Assembly: GCF_003626755.1 (NCBI RefSeq)
Contig: NZ_RBCJ01000004.1
Span: forward strand, 62,001 to 126,000
Source of the DNA: Ulvibacterium marinum
Lineage (GTDB): Bacteria; Bacteroidota; Bacteroidia; Flavobacteriales; Flavobacteriaceae
Direction: 5' to 3'
Length of the DNA stretch: 64,000 bases
The position numbers were made by a program, and so were the translations under genes. Positions 42,252 through 54,633 of the stretch are shown here, piece after piece. The notes under the pieces were generated by a model. That model ran no database searches. It saw only the letters and a list, made by a program, of their open reading frames with translations, and was not told the origin of the DNA. Each line of letters opens with the position of its first letter. The stretch's first letter is position 1.

Positions 42252-43034
42252 TTAGTCCAATTCATTGTTACTCCGATAATACCTACTTTTTTTTCGCATG
42301 TATTCCCATATCTTTAGCCGGTCATGGGTGTTTACGATTACTTGAAAAGTAGAATCTACTTCACAGAAATACATAAAATCGGGTATGTTTTCTTCGGGTA
42401 TTTTCAAATCCTTTACAAAAAGGGAGTCAGGATAAAATTCCCTGACCCTTTGGGTGCGTTCATATTTTGCATTTCGTTTTAGCCGCTGTTTCAACATTTT
42501 GGTACGCCCCGAAATAGCGTTCAAGATAGGGTTTATCGGAACCAATCCCCCCCCGGTAGTAGCTTCATAAAACTTTCGTTCGGCCTGTGACGGGGGCTTC
42601 ACATAAGCGTTGGGCAATCCCAAGGTGGAAGCGGTAACCACGGGCTCCGTATCCAGGTTATTCAAATCCGTACCCACATCCCCGGATAAATTATAGAGAC
42701 GTACCACCACTTCATCCAATTCCGTAAGTGCTTCCTCCAAAGGGACCAGTAATGATGCGCTTTCGAAAATTTTTGTACTTACTACAATTTCCTTGCGTTT
42801 ATACTGAATGGCTGAAAATACCAAGGTATCATTGAGTTTGACGGAAATGGAAAAAGACCCGTTTACATCGGTTATGGTGGCCTTTTGAGCGGTAATATTC
42901 AATACATGGGTAGCCGCCACATCCCCATCTTTGCTATACACCCGTCCTTCCAATCTTTTGGAAAAAAGGGATTGGGCCTCCATGGCAATGGAGCATAAAA
43001 GAAAACCTATAAGAAGTGTACTACTTCCCTTCAT
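42252..43034 (-). CDS. Carboxypeptidase-regulatory-like domain secreted protein
   Basis: The 260-residue protein has a signal peptide (LLIGFLLCSIAMEAQ) and a CarboxypepD_reg-like beta-sandwich at about residues 28-110 (LEGRVYSKDGDVAATHVLNIT, ITDVNGSFSISVKLNDTLVFSAI, LDEVVV). The last 120 residues are helix-rich and end NELD. Such domains usually precede TonB receptors, but here there is no barrel, so it is a stand-alone secreted protein. Its start overlaps the end of a paralogue on the same strand by 14 bases, forming a duplicated pair. Confidence 0.82.
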   Translation of the reverse strand: MKGSSTLLIGFLLCSIAMEAQSLFSKRLEGRVYSKDGDVAATHVLNITAQKATITDVNGSFSISVKLNDTLVFSAIQYKRKEIVVSTKIFESASLLVPLEEALTELDEVVVRLYNLSGDVGTDLNNLDTEPVVTASTLGLPNAYVKPPSQAERKFYEATTGGGLVPINPILNAISGRTKMLKQRLKRNAKYERTQRVREFYPDSLFVKDLKIPEENIPDFMYFCEVDSTFQVIVNTHDRLKIWEYMRKKSRYYRSNNELD

Positions 43035-43767
43035 CCAAGGACTTACGGAATGTTTGGCTATGGGTTACCAGAAAATCGATCAACTGAAATTCGTTGTCTT
43101 TTCGCAGCAAGGATTGCGCCGGCATCTGGGAATCACAATAAAGCAAGAACGCATCAATCTTATCCTGAGGCAGCTTCAGGTCCAATACAAAAAACTCATC
43201 ATCATAGATCTGTCGTAAGGCTTCGCTAACCTTTAGCCTTGGCCTATCTTCTTCTTCCGCCTTTCCGGACTTCAACAATGCCCTGAAAATATTGGCAATA
43301 TTTAGGCCATCCCGCATTCCTCGATCCGTTTGCGACATAGCTATATTTTCCACCTCCGTGGAACGGTCTATTTCGTATTCAAAGCCTTTGAGTTGCTCGT
43401 TCTTAAGTTCCAAATAACGTTCTTGGTTCTCGGGGGATAGTACTACCTCGTCCAGTTCCGTAACTTTCTCGTTTACCTCTACCACCAAACGGTTGCGACT
43501 AAGTATTTCATCGGTAATCTTTACAATCTGCAATTGATAGTTTACCGCAGTAAACACCAGTTCATCACCTTCTTTGACCCGTATGGCAAACTCGCCATTT
43601 TCATTGGTGATCGTTGCCCGTTCCGATGTAGTATTAATTACATTTTCGTTAACAACACTACTGTTGCGATAGAGCACCTTTCCCCTAAGAATTGTCCGCG
43701 TATCGTCCTGTGCAAATCCAACGTTGACAAAAAAAATGCAAAGGAACAGCGATGCTAGGAGTTTCAT
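43021..43767 (-). CDS. Carboxypeptidase-regulatory-like domain secreted protein (paralogue)
   Basis: The 248-residue protein starting MKLLASLFLC has a signal peptide and the same architecture as its downstream neighbour: GKVLYRNSSVVNENVINT, TNENGEFAIRVKEGDELVFTAV and VTELDEVVLSP. Its helical tail ends FRKSLDEGK. The two share the layout but diverge in sequence, so the duplication is old. A start 15 codons earlier is possible but lacks signal-peptide character. It is transcribed divergently from the large fibre gene at 44038, with the putative regulatory half-site near 43918 between them. Confidence 0.82.
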   Translation of the reverse strand: MKLLASLFLCIFFVNVGFAQDDTRTILRGKVLYRNSSVVNENVINTTSERATITNENGEFAIRVKEGDELVFTAVNYQLQIVKITDEILSRNRLVVEVNEKVTELDEVVLSPENQERYLELKNEQLKGFEYEIDRSTEVENIAMSQTDRGMRDGLNIANIFRALLKSGKAEEEDRPRLKVSEALRQIYDDEFFVLDLKLPQDKIDAFLLYCDSQMPAQSLLRKDNEFQLIDFLVTHSQTFRKSLDEGK

Positions 43768-43994
43768 TATAGTTTTTTTAAGAAAGATAAAGAAAGTATA
43801 ACTTATCCTCATAAAAAAACCGACGTCTCTAAACTTTTGTTAATTTACGGAAAATCGACATTTTTATTAGGAACGATTGCCTTGGTTTTAATGCGTCCAG
43901 GCTAGCTCGGAGCACTTTTCACAACATTGTTTTCACTTCACCCCAATACCTGCGCATTTTAACCGCTAAAGTTAGGTATGTGGGTAGATAATTT

Positions 43995-44002
43995 TATTTT
44001 TG
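43995..44002 (+). promoter_or_regulatory. -7 element for the large fibre gene
   Basis: TATTTTTG matches TAnnTTTG and ends 35 bases before the ATG at 44038. No -33 box at the correct spacing was seen. Confidence 0.4.
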
Positions 44003-44037
44003 TTAGTCCCGCCAATCATGGCGTAAAGTGTCTTCCT

Positions 44038-47000
44038 ATGAAAGCGAACATAGTGCTCCTGTCCATTGGTCTTCTCGTCTGTAGTCTGGCGAACGGTCAG
44101 ATTAAAATTGGGGATAATCCTCAGAACATAGACCCTGCTTCTGTACTGGAATTGGAAAGCGACTCGCGGGTTTTGGTCATTACCCGAATCAATACGCAAC
44201 AAATGGAAAGTATTGTTCCCAATCCGGGGGCTTTGATCTATAATACGGACACCCAATGCATCCATTATTTTGATGGCACGCAATGGGCCAATTTATGCGA
44301 ATCCGCAGACCTTACGTTTACAGCCGACCCTATAGAGAACGCACTCAGCACCATAGTCATAACACGAAATGACGACAATATTAATTTGGAAGTAGCCCCC
44401 AATAGTATCCGTACCGAACAGATCGTAAACGGTGGTGTTAATGGGGTGGATATCCAAGATAATTCCATTGGCCCCAATAAATTGGCGGATGATGCCGTAG
44501 GCAGGGACGAGCTTTCCGAAAATGCCGTAGGTGTGGACGCCCTGGCCGTGGATGAGTTCAGTTTGGGCGATTTTGCCAACACCCCGGGCTTTATTACCGG
44601 TGCCGATATTGTAAGCAATGACCCGGACAATGCCATTACGGATAATGGCGGGGCGTTCTATGATGATAGTGCCTTACAGACAGCGGTGGCGACCAATACA
44701 ACGGCCATTGCCAACGATGGTGATACCAATGCAGCCAATGAAATTCAAAATCTGACCCTGATAGGCGATCAGCTATCAATTTCAGGTAGCAACACAGTAG
44801 ACCTAGGTCCATTTAACAACACGGGAAGTGATGAACAAAATTTGACGGGAGCCTCATTGAATAGTGCCAATATACTTCAGATCGACATTGAAAATGGAAA
44901 TTCTACTACAGTCGATTTATCTCCCTTGGCCGGGACAGGAACAGACAACCAAAACCTAATAGGTGCCTCATTAAATGGTGCCAACATACTGCAAATAGAC
45001 ATTGAAAATGGTAACTCAACAACTGTGGATTTAAGTCCTTTAGCCGGAACCGGAACGGACAGCCAAAATCTAACGGGAGCTTCCCTGAATGGTGCCAATG
45101 TGCTTCAGATCGATATTGAAAATGGAAATTCGACTACCGTGGATCTTAGTCCTTTGGCAGGTGGAGCGGCCGACGGAGTGATTACCAATGTTGTTCTCAA
45201 CACTACCAATTTACAGTTTACAGGTGTCAATGGAGGATTTAATGGTTCTGTGGACTTATCTCCCCTTAGTGGCACCGGGGCCGACGGTGTGGTGACAGGG
45301 GTAGCACTAAACGGGACGGACCTGGAGTTCTCAGGAACTGCACCCGGGTTTATCGGGACTGTGCCCTTAGGGGGTATTGACACTACGCTAGATGAGGCGG
45401 CAGTGGATGCATTTGTCAATAACAATGGATACCTTACTGCAGAGGTTGATGGTAGTATTACGAATGAAATTGAACTACCTCCAGGGGGTAATAATGGTCA
45501 AATTTTATCTACGGATGGGGCGGGCAACTATTCGTGGGCTACCCCTACTGGGGGAGGTATAGATACTAATAATTTTATCACAGGTGGTATTCTTAATGTA
45601 GAGAGCTTGGAACTAACGGGAACTGGTGGTGCAGGCGCAGTTATTGACCTTTCCGCCTTTGCTCTGGATACGGACATTGTGTCCACTACCATTGTCAGTA
45701 CTGACACACCCAATTCCATTACTCCAGGAACAGATGGTGGGGCATTATATGACGATCCAGATGCAGATTCCAGCAATGAGATACAGGCTTTTACCTCAAT
45801 CGATGGTTCCGTTACCATTACGCCCGTAGGAATTAATGACTTCGATTTATCTGTGCCTGCTGGCTCTGACAACCAGAACCTGGGCGCAGCAACGCTCACA
45901 GGGAGCGACCTGACCATAAACATAGAGGACGGGAACCCCACAACGGCCGACCTCTCGGCTCTGGCCACAGACCTCGAACTGGCCGCAGCCATCACCGCAT
46001 CGGAGGGACTCGACAACGACACCGACGACCAGAACGAGATACAGGCCATTACCTCCACCGACAACTCGGTGACCATAACCCAGACAGGGGACGATTTCGA
46101 CCTATCAGTGGCTGGAGGGGGAACGGACAACCAGAACCTGGGCGCAGCAACGCTCACAGGGAGCGACCTGACCATAAACATAGAGGACGGGAACCCCACA
46201 ACGGCCGACCTCTCGGCTCTGGCCACAGACCTCGAACTGGCCGCAGCCATCACCGCATCGGAGGGACTCGACAACGACACCGACGACCAGAACGAGATAC
46301 AGGCCATTACCTCCACCGACAACTCGGTGACCATAACCCAGACAGGGGACGATTTCGACCTATCAGTGGCTGGAGGGGGGACAACGGTATCCGTAAACGC
46401 ACCTTTAACGGGTGATGGTAGTGGGGGCAGTCCTTTGGGAATAGCCAATAATGGAATCACATCAGCCCTGATTGCCGTTGGCGCCATACAGGGAAGTTTT
46501 GGAGGAGGTCCCAGTGTCATTATTGCCAATACTATTGGTCAAGGTGACATAGGAGACAATGCCATTGGACCTGGGGAGATTCAATCAAATGCAGTTTCCT
46601 CTGATGAAATTGATGATGATAGCATTACAAATGCTGACATAAATACTGGTGCAGGAATAGAGGGAACTAAAATCGCCCCAAACTTTGGTAATCAGAATAT
46701 CACAACCAGTGGTAACCTATCAATTACTGGCGCTGGAACGGTTACGGTGCAAGGTAACCTAGAACACCCAGATTACGTTTTTGAAAAATATTTCAGAGGA
46801 TATTCCAACATTTATCCAAATTATGACTTTGAGGATTTATCAACAATTGAACGTTTTGTAAAAAAGAACTTTCATTTACCGGGTCTGCAGTCAGCAAAAG
46901 AAATTAAAAATCAAGGGTTTTGGGATCTTGGAGAAGCATCTCGAATAAACCTGGAAAAAATAGAGGAACTGTTCCTCCATACCATTGCTCAGGAAAAGAA

Positions 47001-47112
47001 GATTGAGAAGCTTCAAAATGAAAAGGACTCGCTGTCCCAAGAAGTCCAGGCGTTACGGAAAGATATCCAACAAATAAAGGCTATGCTCAAAAACAACAAA
47101 AGTAAAAAGTGA
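44038..47112 (+). CDS. Secreted tail-fibre-like repeat protein
   Basis: The 1024-residue protein starting MKANIVLLSI has a signal peptide and an opening domain (KIGDNPQNIDPASVLELES, then GALIYNTDTQCIHYF) shared with the fibre at 48426. Residues 265-378 hold three 38-residue repeats (NQNL-GASLN, LQIDIENGNSTTVDLSPLAG). Residues 611-782 hold two exact 86-residue repeats, encoded by a 258-base unit repeated identically. The last 110 residues (DYVFEKYFRGY, HLPGLQSAKEI, then a coiled coil) look like the S74-type intramolecular chaperone of trimeric fibres. It lacks a T9SS C-terminal domain. Its stop overlaps the GTG start of a T9SS type-B partner. Confidence 0.85.
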   Translation: MKANIVLLSIGLLVCSLANGQIKIGDNPQNIDPASVLELESDSRVLVITRINTQQMESIVPNPGALIYNTDTQCIHYFDGTQWANLCESADLTFTADPIENALSTIVITRNDDNINLEVAPNSIRTEQIVNGGVNGVDIQDNSIGPNKLADDAVGRDELSENAVGVDALAVDEFSLGDFANTPGFITGADIVSNDPDNAITDNGGAFYDDSALQTAVATNTTAIANDGDTNAANEIQNLTLIGDQLSISGSNTVDLGPFNNTGSDEQNLTGASLNSANILQIDIENGNSTTVDLSPLAGTGTDNQNLIGASLNGANILQIDIENGNSTTVDLSPLAGTGTDSQNLTGASLNGANVLQIDIENGNSTTVDLSPLAGGAADGVITNVVLNTTNLQFTGVNGGFNGSVDLSPLSGTGADGVVTGVALNGTDLEFSGTAPGFIGTVPLGGIDTTLDEAAVDAFVNNNGYLTAEVDGSITNEIELPPGGNNGQILSTDGAGNYSWATPTGGGIDTNNFITGGILNVESLELTGTGGAGAVIDLSAFALDTDIVSTTIVSTDTPNSITPGTDGGALYDDPDADSSNEIQAFTSIDGSVTITPVGINDFDLSVPAGSDNQNLGAATLTGSDLTINIEDGNPTTADLSALATDLELAAAITASEGLDNDTDDQNEIQAITSTDNSVTITQTGDDFDLSVAGGGTDNQNLGAATLTGSDLTINIEDGNPTTADLSALATDLELAAAITASEGLDNDTDDQNEIQAITSTDNSVTITQTGDDFDLSVAGGGTTVSVNAPLTGDGSGGSPLGIANNGITSALIAVGAIQGSFGGGPSVIIANTIGQGDIGDNAIGPGEIQSNAVSSDEIDDDSITNADINTGAGIEGTKIAPNFGNQNITTSGNLSITGAGTVTVQGNLEHPDYVFEKYFRGYSNIYPNYDFEDLSTIERFVKKNFHLPGLQSAKEIKNQGFWDLGEASRINLEKIEELFLHTIAQEKKIEKLQNEKDSLSQEVQALRKDIQQIKAMLKNNKSKK
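44830..45171 (+). repeat. Three 114-bp repeats with synonymous drift
   Basis: Units start at 44830, 44944 and 45058 and each encodes 38 residues. The proteins are nearly identical but many third codon positions differ, so these copies are older than the exact repeats further on in the same gene. Confidence 0.85.
45868..46383 (+). repeat. Two exact 258-bp GC-rich tandem repeats
   Basis: Units start at 45868 and 46126 and match base for base over about 250 bases by eye. I count 37 G or C of 60 in 45901-45960, against AT-rich flanks. The short antisense ORFs that run through here are by-products of the codon use. Confidence 0.9.
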
Positions 47113-48257
47113 AAGAGATTCTTTACATACTGGCACTTTTAAGTACCACAGGGTTAGCGGCCCAGACCGCGCTTTATAACAGTGGCAATATCCGTATCCA
47201 TGAGGAAGGGCAACTAGGCTTCCATACGGATCTGATCAATGATTCCACTTTTGACGAAAACTTGGGACTGGCCGGATTTTATGGCGTTGTCCCCCTTACC
47301 GTTTCCGGAGCTTTTATTCCCCTATTTTTTGATGTGGAACTGGCCAATGATAATGGCGTATTGCTCCAAGTGGGACTGGACAATGCCAACAATACCAATT
47401 TTATCTCAGGGGATTTTTTAACCCCTCGCAATCAGAGTGATGTTACTTATAATTTTTTGCCCGATGCCTTTTATGTCGGCGAGGGAAACTTCTCCAAGGT
47501 CAACGGCTATGCTGAGGTCATTAGCCAACAAAACTTTACCTTCCCTATCGGTGATAATCAACAATTACGACCCTTGATCTTAAATTCCGAAGGGGTCAAT
47601 CCCTCTGCGAAATGTGCTTATTTTTTGGAAGACCCCAATAACCCGACCTCCTTTAACGAAGGTTTTGATACGGAAAACAGGCCCAGGGACATGGGTGCCA
47701 TAAGTACAGTGGAGTTTTGGCGCCTAGTGGGCAATGTGTCCTCAACCATTAGTATTAGTTGGAACGAACGAAGTAATATGGGGGCATTGACCGACGATAT
47801 CAGCACAATAATCCCCGTGGGATGGAACAAAAGTACGGGGCGTTGGGAAAGACTTGGGGAAGGTGGCGCTGTCGGAGATCTTGATCAAGGTTTTGTAGTA
47901 TCCGCCCCTTTTATTCCCGATAACTATGAAATCCTCACCTTTGGAGCTTTGGGAGAACCTACGGACATACTCGATTTGGACAACTACCTGATTACACCTA
48001 ATGGCGATGGCCTAAACGATTTTTTGACCATTCCCGAGCTGGACCAATCGCCCAACAATATCCTTCGGATCTATGACCGGAATGGGTTAAAAGTATTCGA
48101 GAAAAGGAACTACGTAAATGAGTTTAACGGATTTTCCAATGTGGATAATATGGTCATTACCCGGGAAAAAGGGCTCCCGATCGGAATCTATTTTTATATT
48201 GTTTCCATGGAAGACTTAAATCTTGATTTTCAAGGGTTTTTGTACCTATCACGATAA
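47109..48257 (+). CDS. T9SS type-B (gliding-motility-associated) sorting-domain protein
   Basis: The 382-residue protein has a GTG start overlapping the stop of the fibre gene, so the two are coupled. A signal peptide (ILALLSTTGLAAQ) is followed by a beta-rich body with GQLGFHTDLIND, and then the C-terminal type-B T9SS domain with YLITPNGDGLNDFLTIPEL and LRIYDRNGLKVFEKRNY. The terminal GIYFYIVSMEDLN is typical. It would be exported through the type IX system and stay on the cell surface. Its paralogue is at 51356. No SprF/PorP-like partner is adjacent. Confidence 0.88.
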   Translation: MKEILYILALLSTTGLAAQTALYNSGNIRIHEEGQLGFHTDLINDSTFDENLGLAGFYGVVPLTVSGAFIPLFFDVELANDNGVLLQVGLDNANNTNFISGDFLTPRNQSDVTYNFLPDAFYVGEGNFSKVNGYAEVISQQNFTFPIGDNQQLRPLILNSEGVNPSAKCAYFLEDPNNPTSFNEGFDTENRPRDMGAISTVEFWRLVGNVSSTISISWNERSNMGALTDDISTIIPVGWNKSTGRWERLGEGGAVGDLDQGFVVSAPFIPDNYEILTFGALGEPTDILDLDNYLITPNGDGLNDFLTIPELDQSPNNILRIYDRNGLKVFEKRNYVNEFNGFSNVDNMVITREKGLPIGIYFYIVSMEDLNLDFQGFLYLSR

Positions 48258-48324
48258 CAAAATCGCATTCCATCACATCGATTAAGTGCCATTTTATCAG
48301 GTAATTTGTCGGTACTACCCCATT

Positions 48325-48357
48325 CACAACATTTTATAGCGACTACACAACATTTTA
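48325..48357 (+). promoter_or_regulatory. Direct repeat with 21-base period upstream of the second fibre gene
   Basis: CACAACATTTTA occurs at 48325-48336 and again at 48346-48357, a 21-base period (two helical turns). A related TTCACAACATT is found once at 43918-43928 upstream of the first fibre gene. It may be a binding site of a paired or LytTR-type regulator, but this is not demonstrated. Confidence 0.4.
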
Positions 48358-48425
48358 CGGACCTCCATCCCTTTGTCCTTTAATTTTACGGGGAATTATA
48401 CCATTTACCCCCAAATTATAGCCAA

Positions 48426-50219
48426 ATGGACTTTAAAAAACTCGGATGGATACTACTATTTATAGGAGTTAATTTCGCAACTGCACAGGTAAAAATAGGA
48501 GAAAACCCAAACACCATCAACGGGGCCTCCATCGTTGAGCTGGAAAGTACGGACAAAGCTTTGGTACTTACCCGGGTCTCCACTTCACAAATGCAAAGTA
48601 TTGTGCCTCTTCATGGAGCCATGGTGTACAATACAGATACCCAATGTATCCATTACTTCAATGGTGCACAATGGAACAATCTTTGCAACGGATCGGGTTC
48701 CACCGGAAACGTTTCATTTATAGATAATGGCAATGGTACTTTTACCTTAAACGATGGCAATGGAGGCACAATTACCTTTAATGGTGCTGCTGAGACCACA
48801 AGTACTTTGGTCGATAATTTTGATGGAACCTATACCTATACCAACGAAACTGGTGGCCAAACCGTAATCTCCTTTACTACAACAGATAGTCAAAATATTA
48901 GTACGGATGGTACGGCAGGAAATATTTCCATTGATAATGGCAATAGTATTACATTGAATGTTGATGATGGGGATGCCGATGACCAGAATGAGATTCAGGA
49001 CTTGCAATTTAATTCGGGAATCATCTCGCTAAGCAATGATCCGGATGCGACGACTATAAATCTTTCAAGTTATGACGATTCCGCAGCGATAGCGGCACTC
49101 CAGGCGGACGTGGACGCCAACGAGACCGACGCCGACAACGCAATAGCACTCAAGGAGGACGCCGCCAACAAGTCTACGGACGTGAACCTGGCGGACGCCA
49201 CCAACACCCTGTTCCCAACGGAGCTCGCAGTGAAGACCTATGTCGACGCACAGGTAGGGGGCATAGCACCCGACGACGATGTCTCAGCGGTTGACTTCGA
49301 CGGGACCAACCTGAGCGTGACCGAGGGAGGCAACACACTATCGGCAGACATTTCGGCACTGGACGATTCCGCAGCGATAGCGGCACTCCAGGCGGACGTG
49401 GACGCCAACGAGACCGACGCCGACAACGCAATAGCACTCAAGGAGGACGCCGCCAACAAGTCTACGGACGTGAACCTGGCGGACGCCACCAACACCCTGT
49501 TCCCAACGGAGCTCGCAGTGAAGACCTATGTCGACGCACAGGTAGGGGGCATAGCACCCGACGACGATGTCTCAGCGGTTGACTTCGACGGGACCAACCT
49601 GAGCGTGACCGAGGGAGGCAACACACTATCGGCAGACATTTCGGCACTGGACGATTCCGCAGCGATAGCGGCACTCCAGGCGGACGTGGACGCCAACGAG
49701 ACCGACGCCGACAACGCAATAGCACTCAAGGAGGACGCCGCCAACAAGTCTACGGACGGAACACTTTCGGGTAATTCGGATGTGGACTTCCCAACCGAAC
49801 AGGCCGTAAAAACTTATGTTGATACAGAGGTGGGAGCCATTAATACCGTAGGAGCTGAAACTAATAATAGCATTTCGGCCGGTGCCAATGGTGGAGCTTT
49901 TTACGAAAGTCCTATTAAAGCATTTGGTAAAATTGGTTCTAACGGAAGCGTTATTAGGGCTACCACAGGTGTAACCTCAACTAGGCTAAGTACCGGTCGT
50001 TATCGTGTCACATTACCTACGGGGGCCGTATCCGATGCGAATTATATCATACAACTGACCCAACCAGGAAGAGGCGGCGCCGGTAATGATGATCCTGGCA
50101 TCTCCTACTCCAATCAAACATCCACCACTTTTGAAGTGATTGTTGGCGATAATGACAATGGCGGAACGGACAGAAGCCGTTTCAATTCGGAATTTATGTT
50201 CACGATACTTGATTTATAA
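48426..50219 (+). CDS. Secreted tail-fibre-like repeat protein
   Basis: The 597-residue protein has a signal peptide and the same opening domain as the 44038 product (VKIGENPNTINGASIVELES). At residues 217-444 lie two full and one partial copy of a 96-residue unit with a phage-fibre-like core (PTELAVKTYVDAQVGGIAP), exact at the DNA level. The C-terminal 110 residues (FGKIGSNGSVIRATTG, STGRYRVTLPTG, VIVGDNDNGG) form a probable beta-jelly-roll tip domain. It has no T9SS domain. It lies in one direction with a smaller fibre protein and a T9SS type-B partner downstream. Confidence 0.85.
   Translation: MDFKKLGWILLFIGVNFATAQVKIGENPNTINGASIVELESTDKALVLTRVSTSQMQSIVPLHGAMVYNTDTQCIHYFNGAQWNNLCNGSGSTGNVSFIDNGNGTFTLNDGNGGTITFNGAAETTSTLVDNFDGTYTYTNETGGQTVISFTTTDSQNISTDGTAGNISIDNGNSITLNVDDGDADDQNEIQDLQFNSGIISLSNDPDATTINLSSYDDSAAIAALQADVDANETDADNAIALKEDAANKSTDVNLADATNTLFPTELAVKTYVDAQVGGIAPDDDVSAVDFDGTNLSVTEGGNTLSADISALDDSAAIAALQADVDANETDADNAIALKEDAANKSTDVNLADATNTLFPTELAVKTYVDAQVGGIAPDDDVSAVDFDGTNLSVTEGGNTLSADISALDDSAAIAALQADVDANETDADNAIALKEDAANKSTDGTLSGNSDVDFPTEQAVKTYVDTEVGAINTVGAETNNSISAGANGGAFYESPIKAFGKIGSNGSVIRATTGVTSTRLSTGRYRVTLPTGAVSDANYIIQLTQPGRGGAGNDDPGISYSNQTSTTFEVIVGDNDNGGTDRSRFNSEFMFTILDL
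49074..49757 (+). repeat. Exact 288-bp GC-rich tandem repeats (2.4 copies)
   Basis: Units begin at 49074, 49362 and 49650; the first two are identical by eye and the third stops after about 108 bases. I count 42 G or C of 60 in 49081-49140, against 24 of 60 in the preceding line. Confidence 0.92.
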
Positions 50220-50226
50220 GGCACCC

Positions 50227-51351
50227 TTGAAGAACTTCTATATCATACCACTACTTTTCTTGTGTTGGCATACATCCCATGCACAAATCGATGGTACCTT
50301 GTTAATGGGTCTTACCAACGCCACGACCAGTGAAATGAATACGGTTTCAAATCCTGTTACCGGCTCATTACTATATAACACAACGGAACAAAATGTGTTC
50401 CAATACAATGGTAGTACTTGGGAAAGTATAAGCAATACTTCGGGTTCCTGGAGTATGAGCGGTAATTCGGGGACATTGGCCACCACTGACTTTATTGGGA
50501 CGACCGATACGCAAGACTTTGTCCTGCGCTCCAACAATGTAGAAAAACTGAGATTGGTTCAAAACAAAGGCCAAGTTTTGGTCAATCAGGCCCCTTCATT
50601 TAATGACCATCCTTTGGTGATACGTGCCAATGGAATCGATGTGCTCGCCTTTCAGGACAATACAGGTACGGCCCAGTGGCATTGGAATCTTTTGGGAAAC
50701 GGATTGAACTTTGTGGAGTCGAACGTTGCGGACTACCGCCTTTTTCTAGAAAACGGAGGCCAAGTGGGAATCAATACCAATACCCCTTCCGAGCAGCTTG
50801 ATGTAAATGGTACTGCGAGAATACGAACCTTGGGAACAGCCACAAATACGGATGATATTTTGGCCGTAAATGCAACAGGGGTTCTACAAAGATCTAAAAT
50901 CAATTTTGGAGGCCGTTGGACCAACTCCAATACAAGTACCAATTTAAATGTAAACAATACAGTAGCTCCCATATTTGGAACACAGGACTATGCCGATGAC
51001 GGGACCAATTTATATCAGGTAAGTGGAAATACGCTTATTGTAAGGGAGTCTGGCAGATATGATATCCGAGCAAACTTGTCCTTGGTCGGCATTAATTCAG
51101 GAAATAATAGACAAAGGACCAACGTAAATGCACGCATTGCCATAAACGGGACCCCGGTGGGGGCCATAGCGGCCTCAGGATATATCCGATGGGCCAGTGG
51201 CCATGACCGTTCCAGTATTCACCTAAACGAAATTTTACAATTGAACGCCGATGATGTGGTCTCCATTATCACATATAGGGAAGCCAATTCAGGTACCGTG
51301 AATTTTAGTGGTACCGACGAATCTAGTTTTATGATCAATAAACTGCGATAA
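50227..51351 (+). CDS. Secreted fibre-like protein with C1q/TNF-like C-terminal domain
   Basis: The 374-residue protein starts at TTG (LKNFYIIPLL), which gives a signal peptide ending near SHAQ and avoids overlapping the previous gene. It carries the fibre-type opening LLYNTTEQNVFQYNG, an internal GGQVGINTNTPSEQLDVNG repeat-type motif, and a C-terminal jelly roll (YDIRANLSLVGINSG, ARIAINGTPVGAI, SSFMINKL) like C1q-type tip domains. A longer in-frame reading overlapping the 48426 gene has no signal peptide. The T9SS type-B partner follows after 4 bases. Confidence 0.75.
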   Translation: MKNFYIIPLLFLCWHTSHAQIDGTLLMGLTNATTSEMNTVSNPVTGSLLYNTTEQNVFQYNGSTWESISNTSGSWSMSGNSGTLATTDFIGTTDTQDFVLRSNNVEKLRLVQNKGQVLVNQAPSFNDHPLVIRANGIDVLAFQDNTGTAQWHWNLLGNGLNFVESNVADYRLFLENGGQVGINTNTPSEQLDVNGTARIRTLGTATNTDDILAVNATGVLQRSKINFGGRWTNSNTSTNLNVNNTVAPIFGTQDYADDGTNLYQVSGNTLIVRESGRYDIRANLSLVGINSGNNRQRTNVNARIAINGTPVGAIAASGYIRWASGHDRSSIHLNEILQLNADDVVSIITYREANSGTVNFSGTDESSFMINKLR

Positions 51352-51355
51352 GATT

Positions 51356-52522
51356 ATGAGAATCAAGATATTTATATTTTCTTGTTGCTGTTGCATCGGT
51401 CTATACGCCCAAGATGCCATACATAACTATGGTGCACTTCAATTACATGATGGCACATCGGTCGGATTTCACTTGAATCTTATTAATGATGGGGATTTGA
51501 ATCAAGACTTCGGTCTGGTCGGTTTTTACGGAGAAAATGAGAACTTGGATGTCTCTGGGAACCAAGCTCCGGTTTTTTTTGATACCGAAATCGCAGTAGA
51601 TAACGGATTACTTTTAAATATTCCCATTTACATTTCCAATAATGTAAATTTTATTTCGGGCCACATTATTACCCCAAAAAATGACCCCAACTTTTTTCTG
51701 AACTTTTTGGACAATGCCTTTTACGTTGGAGAAAACGATATTTCCATGATAGATGGCTACGCAGCGGCAACAAATACGGATAACTTTGTTTTTCCAGTGG
51801 GTGACGACGATAGGTTGCGTACGCTGCAAATAGAATCCGCAGCCACGAACGCCTTGGTAAAATGCGCTTATTTTAAAGAAGATCCCAATACCTCCCAGTC
51901 CTTGGGCAAAGGCTTTAGTACTTCACAAAAAGCCACATCCTATGTTTCAATCAGCCAACGGGAATTTTGGAAATTGGAAAGTGCCATGCCTTCACGGGTA
52001 ACCCTTACTTGGGATTCCCAGAGCAATATTAGTGCATTAGGAGAATTCATAAGCGATGTAAAAGTAGTCGGATGGAGCAAAGCTGAGAACCAATGGGTAA
52101 ATCTTGGAAATACACGGGTAGAGGGAAGTATGATCTCGGGATCCGTAACATCCGAGGAGTTTATTCCCAATGATTATGAAATAATTACGATTGGAGGAAA
52201 CGATGATCTTACGGAAACTTTTCAAACCATAGAACTGGATAACTATTTTCTTACACCTAACGGGGATGGCAAAAACGATTTTCTTGTTCTCGAAGGGATT
52301 GAAAATTCTCCTAATAACACCATGCAAATTTTTGACCGTTACGGGGTGCTGGTCTATTCAAAAACCAACTATAACAACGAGTTTAATGGGTTATCCAACC
52401 AAGGGGCCATAGTAAACAAAAATGCCGGACTCGCTTCGGGAGTATATTTCTATATCATTACGATGAACGATCTACGACAAAAACACCAAGGGTATTTGTA
52501 CGTTTCTTCTACTAAAAGATAA
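51356..52522 (+). CDS. T9SS type-B (gliding-motility-associated) sorting-domain protein, paralogue
   Basis: The 388-residue protein is a paralogue of the one at 47109. It has a signal peptide (IFIFSCCCCIGLYAQ), a beta-rich body with SVGFHLNLINDGDLNQDFG and SQREFWKLESAMPSRVT, and a C-terminal T9SS type-B domain (YFLTPNGDGKNDFLVLEGI, IFDRYGVLVYSKTNY). The pair lie behind two different fibre genes, and both follow the fibre with 4 bases or less, which suggests a repeated fibre-plus-partner module. Confidence 0.88.
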   Translation: MRIKIFIFSCCCCIGLYAQDAIHNYGALQLHDGTSVGFHLNLINDGDLNQDFGLVGFYGENENLDVSGNQAPVFFDTEIAVDNGLLLNIPIYISNNVNFISGHIITPKNDPNFFLNFLDNAFYVGENDISMIDGYAAATNTDNFVFPVGDDDRLRTLQIESAATNALVKCAYFKEDPNTSQSLGKGFSTSQKATSYVSISQREFWKLESAMPSRVTLTWDSQSNISALGEFISDVKVVGWSKAENQWVNLGNTRVEGSMISGSVTSEEFIPNDYEIITIGGNDDLTETFQTIELDNYFLTPNGDGKNDFLVLEGIENSPNNTMQIFDRYGVLVYSKTNYNNEFNGLSNQGAIVNKNAGLASGVYFYIITMNDLRQKHQGYLYVSSTKR

Positions 52523-53868: not shown

Positions 53869-54633
53869 ATGAGAAGGGGAAGTTGGAAAATTCGTATTTT
53901 CATTGGTTTGGCCATTGTGGGCTTTGCCTTTATCCAGCGCTGCAACAACAAAGAAGAAAATCCGTATACAGGAAGGGTACAGACCATTGACATGACCGCG
54001 GAACAAGAAATTGCCATTGGACTGCAAAGTGCTCCCGAGATGGCCCAACAACACGGGGGGCTTTATCCTGATGAACGCCTACAGTCCTTTGTAGATGCCG
54101 TTGGCACCAAACTCATAAGCAATAGCATAGCGCGGGAGACACCCTACAAATATGATTTTCATCTCTTAGCAGATGACCGTACCATAAATGCCTTTGCCCT
54201 GCCCGGGGGGCAGATATTCATTACCTATGCCCTTTTCTCAAAATTGAACGAAGCCCAATTGGCCGGTGTTCTTGGGCATGAGATAGGCCATGTAATCGGT
54301 AGGCATTCAGCGGAAAGAATCGCGGAAAGTAGCTTCTGGCGGACTGTTTCCATGGGAGCATCAGTTGGAGCGGATGCAGGGGGAATCGTGGGCAGTATTG
54401 GGCAAAACACCCTTTTAAAAAATGGAAGGGGCGATGAATTGGAAAGTGACGAATTGGGTGTATTATTCATGATTCGGTCCGGGTATGAACCTAGGGAGAT
54501 GATCAAGGTAATGGAAATCCTAAGAGACGCTGCCGGATCTAATCGAACACCAGAATTTCAAAGTACCCATCCCGATCCCGAGAATAGGATTCAAAAGATA
54601 AAGGAGGCCATCCAGAAGTACGAAGGACGGTAA
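53869..54633 (+). CDS. M48-family metalloprotease (BepA/YcaL-like)
   Basis: The 254-residue protein has a hydrophobic N-terminus with a Cys at about residue 25 that may be a lipoprotein anchor, and the zinc motif HEIGHVIGRHS with the third ligand in ELESDELG. The family acts in periplasmic quality control of outer-membrane proteins. FALPGGQIFITYALFSKL is the usual strand before the active site. It is probably a single gene. Confidence 0.9.
   Translation: MRRGSWKIRIFIGLAIVGFAFIQRCNNKEENPYTGRVQTIDMTAEQEIAIGLQSAPEMAQQHGGLYPDERLQSFVDAVGTKLISNSIARETPYKYDFHLLADDRTINAFALPGGQIFITYALFSKLNEAQLAGVLGHEIGHVIGRHSAERIAESSFWRTVSMGASVGADAGGIVGSIGQNTLLKNGRGDELESDELGVLFMIRSGYEPREMIKVMEILRDAAGSNRTPEFQSTHPDPENRIQKIKEAIQKYEGR

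Follow-up and report, generated by a model that had tools for sequence, protein, structure and literature searches.

The window analysed here, a 64,000-nucleotide stretch of the Ulvibacterium marinum genome (contig NZ_RBCJ01000004.1, positions 62,001 to 126,000), contains an array of genes for long fibre-like proteins and for smaller partner proteins that end in a type-B signal of the type IX secretion system (T9SS). A sequence-only reading of this DNA had claimed three fibre-like genes and two type-B genes running in one direction, each type-B gene following a fibre gene within 4 bases or less, and the positions of the open reading frames agree with this (Table 1). Fibre 1 and partner 1 form the first cassette, the start of the partner overlapping the end of the fibre by 4 bp. 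Fibre 2, fibre 3 and partner 2, which begins 4 bp past fibre 3, form the second. For fibre 1 there is a further in-frame ATG at 43978. Where the second cassette has fibres 2 and 3, several relatives encode one longer fibre that combines a canonical head with a tip of the fibre 3 type.

Table 1. Features of the array and its divergent neighbours, in window coordinates (GC3, GC content at third codon positions; signal peptides judged by eye).
Feature	Position	Strand	Description
Fibre 1	44038..47112	+	1024 aa from ATG 44038; signal peptide, canonical head, repeat stalk, coil-type tip
Fibre 1 head domain	44101..44304	+	Alignment A9 (33 heads) and own-genome search
Fibre 1 stalk, 114-bp repeats	44836..45155	+	2.8 copies, 76% matches
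Fibre 1 258-bp repeat	45868..46379	+	2 copies, 100% matches, GC3 0.75
Fibre 1 C-terminal tip, coil type	46720..47109	+	22 homologues aligned; row of tip family A3
Partner 1, clade B1	47109..48257	+	382 aa; signal peptide, own N-domain, T9SS type-B C-terminal domain
Partner 1 T9SS type-B C-terminal domain	47976..48248	+	PF13585, residues 290-380
Fibre 2	48426..50219	+	597 aa; signal peptide, repeat stalk, WFFTV-type tip
Fibre 2 canonical head	48489-48689	+	Head match 6.6e-37
Fibre 2 288-bp repeat	49074..49762	+	2.4 copies, 99% matches, GC3 0.75
Fibre 3	50227..51351	+	374 aa, TTG start; signal peptide, partial (short) head, C1q/BclA_C-like tip
Fibre 3 partial head	50311-50436	+	Head match 1e-8
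Fibre 3 tip	50959..51348	+	Alignment A4
Partner 2, clade B2	51356..52522	+	388 aa; signal peptide, own N-domain, T9SS type-B C-terminal domain
Partner 2 T9SS type-B C-terminal domain	52232..52504	+	PF13585, residues 293-383
BamP-family relative, neighbour, not part	43021..43812	-	NF053692 150.4 bits, residues 16-257
BamP-family relative, neighbour, not part	42252..43034	-	NF053692 105.5 bits

Both partners end in a CHU_C domain (83.7 bits, 9.7e-24 for partner 1; 93.1 bits, 1.2e-26 for partner 2; cut-off 27). Partner 2 also passes the TIGR04131 model with 49.5 bits, and partner 1 lies just below its cut-off of 35, at 32.7 bits. The two proteins are 44% identical from end to end, in keeping with the earlier claim that they are paralogous. 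By their C-terminal signal both are T9SS type-B substrates, with secretion predicted, and SprA is encoded in the same genome.

The N-termini of fibres 1 to 3 resemble signal peptides by eye. A head of about 68 residues is common to fibres 1 and 2 and partly present in fibre 3; the fibre 1 head matched the head profile at 5e-38, and a search of NCBIfam with this domain gave just two matches, both unrelated and neither better than E 0.04. Consistent with the sequence-only reading, neither Pfam nor NCBIfam gave a T9SS domain for any of the three fibres (E<=1). Trimeric autotransporter adhesins are also fibres built of head and stalk, but they carry a YadA-type anchor, and none was found among the Pfam matches of the window fibres at E<=1. 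GC3 of the 258-bp and 288-bp stalk repeats was 0.75, compared to 0.40-0.48 in the seven non-fibre window genes measured (the partners and five others). Both repeats consist of near-identical copies, as if duplicated lately or derived from a foreign source.

The tips of the fibres are of different types. For a profile of the coil-type tip of fibre 1, searched against the PDB, the hits were nearly all coiled coils, the best at 0.0025. An S74-like chaperone end had been suggested for this fibre, and found no support: a Pfam search of fibre 1 at E<=1 did not match Peptidase_S74, and of the 38 families matched by 22 homologous tails at E<=0.1, the 25 listed did not include it. Jelly-roll tips had been suggested for the other two fibres. 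For fibre 3 this is plausible, because similarity to the BclA_C, TNF and C1q families is weak but repeated: among 14 homologous tips, BclA_C was matched in eight, TNF in four and C1q in one (E<=0.1), and although the tip in the window reaches 20.4 bits with BclA_C, under the cut-off of 38, other members match at up to 2.9e-6 (BclA_C) and 3.7e-6 (C1q). Against the PDB, the C1q-like profile found two cyanovirin dimers at about 0.01. The suggestion gained no such support for fibre 2, whose tip belongs to another family (a match to A6 at 8.5e-21, the fibre 2 tip being no row of A6) in which no Pfam family was matched in more than one of the 16 WFFTV members. The same was true of 19 LQSDG tips, and 11 YTAYK tips matched no Pfam family.

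Homologues of the partners were detected in 93 of 397 Flavobacteriaceae genomes at E<1e-60 and in 145 at E<=1e-20, using a profile built from the two partners. As no more than four candidates per genome were scored, the copy numbers are minimum values. A draw of 395 genomes from the phylum, whose composition is partly known, gave 10 partner matches at E<=1e-40, all of them in Flavobacteriaceae. We took 77 regions by hand from the listed matches, favouring those with room around them, and the resulting sample, including the window, contained 98 partners (E<1e-60) in 73 stretches, 50 of which held one partner, 21 two and 2 three. A gene on the same strand was called directly upstream of 96 of the 98 partners, at a distance of -35 to +30 bp in 88 of the 96 (median 3), and in 92 of the 96 this gene had a tip type common to at least two cassettes, where tip types are the eight clusters with at least two members obtained by BLAST and single linkage. 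Of 97 partners (L129 was left out), 75 had a head (>25 bits) in one of the first four genes upstream and 66 in the very first, and many of the 22 partners without a nearby head lie at contig ends. The pairing of fibre and type-B protein proposed earlier is therefore found in many other genomes, and the objection that it might not recur falls away. As a control, we inspected 12 other CHU_C matches in the genome of the window, of which three ran off the fetched stretch; a fibre-like gene, judged by eye and by head match, lay directly upstream in one of the nine that could be judged (C10:478318, L159), where a PorP/SprF gene then follows.

Six partners depart from the rule on upstream gene and tip (L083, L121_4, L082, L103, L107 and L129). 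In L083 a collagen-like frame, 4929 aa long or longer, ends about 95 bp before the partner, and the gene caller required a start codon; seen at full length (L083:3214-18000, minus strand; G397:C1 near 2645062), it is a collagen-like frame of 5385 aa with the head at its far end and the partner close after it. The head-bearing gene of L121_4 lies about 565 bp upstream of the partner. Lone tips precede the partner in L082 and L103, where a head is also present, and in L107 a different protein is encoded directly upstream. Secreted proteins of 303-321 aa from a further family occur after the fibre genes and directly 5' of the partner (L107_3; L156:5808-6719), and the protein at L156:5808-6719 had no Pfam match at E<=0.001. 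L129 is described below.

We then scored the same 397 genomes with a head profile of 33 rows, taking the best 15 candidates per genome. At thresholds of E<=1e-28 for the head and E<1e-60 for the partner, 90 genomes had both and 301 had neither, while three had the partner only and three the head only (phi 0.96). In the three head-only genomes a contig end cuts the head gene beside the usual BamP-like pair, indicating that an array begins there and the assembly stops. Seven head genes in six genomes (L170-L175) lie away from any partner; all six genomes are partner-positive, which speaks against the two being inherited together merely as neighbours. One of these genes, L172_13, runs off the stretch, and the only listed partner of its genome is 430 kb away. 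The genome of the window itself has, on another contig, a lone 425-aa fibre (C11:103526; L170:4606-5883) with no adjoining partner; its head is canonical and its tip, judged by eye, of the WFFTV type.

A partner tree of 97 rows, built by a quick method with L129 left out, is dominated by two clades, B1 with 48 rows and a support of 81 and B2 with 46 rows and a support of 97. Locus L010 of Muriicola jejuensis KCTC 22299, for example, contains partners of both. Coil, WFFTV and LQSDG tips occur with B1, and C1q-like, YTAYK, LQSDG, RRRP and other tips, as well as one WFFTV tip, with B2. Tips are frequently replaced inside the clades: labels change 43 times on this tree (least possible 6), fewer than the mean of 60.2 for shuffled labels, of which 0 of 200 were as low. 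Among 13 independent pairs of closely related partners, the tip differs in three (L078/L082, L090/L093 and L069/L074), in which the partners are 76-83% identical and the heads are 0.07-0.27 apart. Tips have thus been exchanged on cassettes that retain similar heads and partners.

The head, on the other hand, co-varies with the partner. For 60 of 65 canonical heads, the nearest head in another locus goes with a partner of the same clade (68 heads, less three whose partner is in neither clade; near-copies within 0.1 were excluded). The Mantel correlation of head and partner distances was 0.68 overall and 0.70 and 0.74 within the clades, and 0 of 2000 permutations were as high. When distances were corrected by those of neighbouring genes, partial correlations of 0.46-0.66 were retained between head and partner N-domain (n 13-29; 0-3 of 1000 permutations) and of 0.37-0.56 between head and C-terminal domain, in six tests combining the two clades with three neighbouring genes as genome proxies. 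It is the tip-coding end that adjoins the partner gene and the head that is far from it, so that plain linkage would predict the reverse order.

We propose, with moderate confidence, that the array is made up of cassettes for two-component surface fibres, in which an anchor exported by the T9SS holds the fibre head and the tip can be exchanged. Each cassette would consist of a long repetitive fibre, made up of head, repeat stalk and exchangeable tip, and of a partner of about 385 aa encoded directly downstream. Signal peptides would take both proteins to the periplasm, and the partner would cross the outer membrane by the T9SS. A shuttle of the PorP/SprF kind would keep it at the surface in trans, an arrangement reported for orphan type-B proteins of Flavobacterium johnsoniae. 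The N-domain of the partner would bind the conserved head, and the fibre would in consequence be displayed with its variable tip outwards, perhaps as an adhesin or receptor-binding fibre. The sequence-only reading had linked fibre and partner in this sense; recurrence, near-perfect co-occurrence and covariation of head and partner strengthen the link, and that the partner probably places or holds the fibre on the cell surface is still the best reading. A bolder version is possible, and we put it forward tentatively: a two-partner mode of the T9SS, in which a small carrier with the T9SS signal would bind the head of the signal-less fibre and bring it to the surface, and in which the cell would exchange tips by recombination among arrayed cassettes, with carrier and head still matched.

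Several observations weigh against an anchor of this kind. Contact between the two proteins, surface location and trimer formation are inferred from sequence, and the structure models of the partner (seven-row alignment, pLDDT 57.9, poor outside residues about 130-283) and of the last 170 residues of fibre 1 (two-row alignment, pLDDT 51.8, a long C-terminal helix being the better part) are both poor. A fold search of the PDB with the partner model gave no solved structure at E<=0.001. At the looser threshold of 1e-12, heads were matched in 117 of the 397 genomes, so that some genomes lacking a strong partner do have weaker head relatives (1e-12 to 1e-24). Unlinked heads indicate that a fibre need not adjoin a partner, and the fibres bear no known T9SS signal. 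These last two points would also suit the view that fibre and partner are merely co-expressed, the partner being a T9SS surface protein in its own right and the fibre periplasmic or released otherwise. We consider this unlikely in the light of the co-occurrence of head and partner, the partner-positive genomes of all seven unlinked heads inspected, and a covariation that survives correction by neighbouring genes.

The covariation may itself be read in other ways. Linkage can also produce it, the same pattern could arise if recombination were limited to the middle of the cassette, and where a locus has cassettes of both clades, the median distance to heads of the same clade elsewhere is smaller than the distance to the neighbouring cassette's head for only 20 of 29 heads. 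Further, tip class partly follows the partner clade (coil and WFFTV with B1, C1q and YTAYK with B2), and 10 of the 13 close partner pairs keep their tip. With the partner gene beginning a few bases from the tip-coding end, this may indicate that the partner, exported by the T9SS, helps to fold or cap the tip and does not anchor the head, in the manner of the tail-fibre assembly proteins of phages, whose genes sit directly after the fibre gene. Such a role seems distinctly improbable to us, because closely similar partners serve different tips in three independent pairs and because it is the head that co-varies with the partner.

We also considered a disulphide bond between Cys170 of the partner, present in 75 of 97 partners, and cysteines of the head. 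At least two cysteines were found in 46 of 52 heads whose partner has Cys170 and in 13 of 13 others; there was no association, and the idea was dropped.

The partners share their type-B C-terminal domain with substrates that are served by PorP/SprF shuttles, such as SprB/SprF, Fjoh_3952/3951 and PG1035-PorP-PorE, and surface anchoring by PorP/SprF has been proposed for type-B substrates in the excerpts available of two reports (PMC9143113, PMC12618676). In SprB/SprF-type systems, as excerpted, the adhesin itself bears the C-terminal domain, whereas here the fibre is without it and a small paired protein has it. Another difference is that none of the 12 PorP/SprF genes of the genome adjoins either window partner, making these orphan type-B proteins. 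According to the excerpted text on F. johnsoniae (PMC12618676), a PorP/SprF gene lies directly 3' of the type-B gene in 9 of 12 cases, which makes this arrangement usual but not universal, and three orphan type-B proteins share Fjoh_1677. These orphans resemble the partners, by description, in having no adjoining shuttle gene and a shuttle in trans; the excerpt does not mention pairing with a fibre. In the same excerpt, a fusion of SprB with the C-terminal domain of Fjoh_1123 formed mostly static foci, with some (3% of cells) moving on the gliding track (PMC12618676). The only solved-structure sequence matched by the partner profile at E<=0.1 was the C-terminus of GhpA of Aureispira (2.5e-6); GhpA is a single protein of 5898 residues, and the match is confined to the C-terminal signal.

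Two-part cassettes of a fibre and its putative anchor are thus present in many Flavobacteriaceae, and we found no prior description of the pairing in the titles and abstract beginnings of the open-licence papers searched; the search being limited to such papers, it may be described elsewhere. In the excerpts of the literature consulted, T9SS cargo bears its own C-terminal signal. If our proposal is correct, a partner-dependent route or anchor would be added to the T9SS, small type-B proteins without an adjoining shuttle gene would gain a function, and a family of exchangeable, probably adhesive tips would be defined in Flavobacteriaceae.

More distant type-B proteins of 410-434 aa were found in 10 regions (L122-L126, L153-L155, L157 and L158). 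By eye, PorP/SprF-like and PorE-like (OmpA-type) genes follow the type-B gene in nine of these, the families having been checked for L122. Nine regions, again by eye, have fibre-like genes ahead of the type-B gene, either adjoining it or separated from it by one or two genes, with head matches for L122 and L153. The presence of fibre-like, type-B, PorP/SprF and PorE-like genes together in these operons suggests an anchoring chain from fibre to type-B protein, PorP/SprF, PorE and cell wall, the last links of which would be as proposed, in the excerpts available, for PG1035-PorP-PorE (PMC9143113) and Fjoh_3952 (PMC12618676). Some of the operons (among L122-L126, L153, L155, L157 and L158) encode an extra protein of about 800 aa between fibre and type-B protein. 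In L129 the partner N-domain is joined to a type-A signal (TIGR04183, 23.2 bits, cut-off 23; the Pfam model is under its cut-off), and the fibre lies downstream instead. The signal type may have changed here with the pairing kept, which we regard as a lead since the TIGR04183 score is marginal.

PHROG tail-fibre families match fibres 2 and 3 (fibre 3 at 6e-14). Phage tail fibres have repeat stalks, swapped tips and a small gene directly downstream, and the array might be a domesticated phage tail or prophage remnant. The window fibres differ from them in having signal peptides and a T9SS partner, and no particle gene or other virion gene was present among the window proteins scanned. A tblastn search of 50,697 phage records, made with fibre 1, gave no match, and no relative of the partner was found in viral contigs. 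The cassettes also favour one chromosomal site, since 65 of the 73 stretches show one or both flanks of the site in the window. As it stands, a phage origin is refuted by these results; we rejected it and regard it as scarcely credible.

In 29 stretches the BamP-like pair was seen together with the right flank of this site. A BamP-like, DUF6702 or M1 peptidase flank was present in 41, and a VanY-type, M48 or phosphoglycerate-mutase-like gene on the other side in 54; eight stretches had neither flank, which indicates that some cassettes are located elsewhere. Two partner-negative genomes (L177 and L178) have an empty site with the same flanks, and were the only ones among 20 genomes searched in which the flank genes of the two sides lay no more than a few kb apart. 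The BamP-like, GNAT, VanY-type and M48 genes, tried as parts of the system, were rejected because they flank this array-free site. The divergent pair, earlier described as carboxypeptidase-regulatory-like and counted with the system, is instead a tandem of BamP relatives that also border the empty site, and is therefore a neighbour and not a part. Both genes fall short of the NF053692 cut-off of 230 bits and are assigned as relatives of BamP, not as BamP, which is a periplasmic accessory of the BAM complex of F. johnsoniae, with three homologues there according to the excerpted text (PMC12611786). The array thus has these relatives on one side (42252-43812) and, at 53869-54633 on the other, a relative of the BepA-like M48 proteases (under cut-off), another name, like BamP, from outer-membrane assembly.

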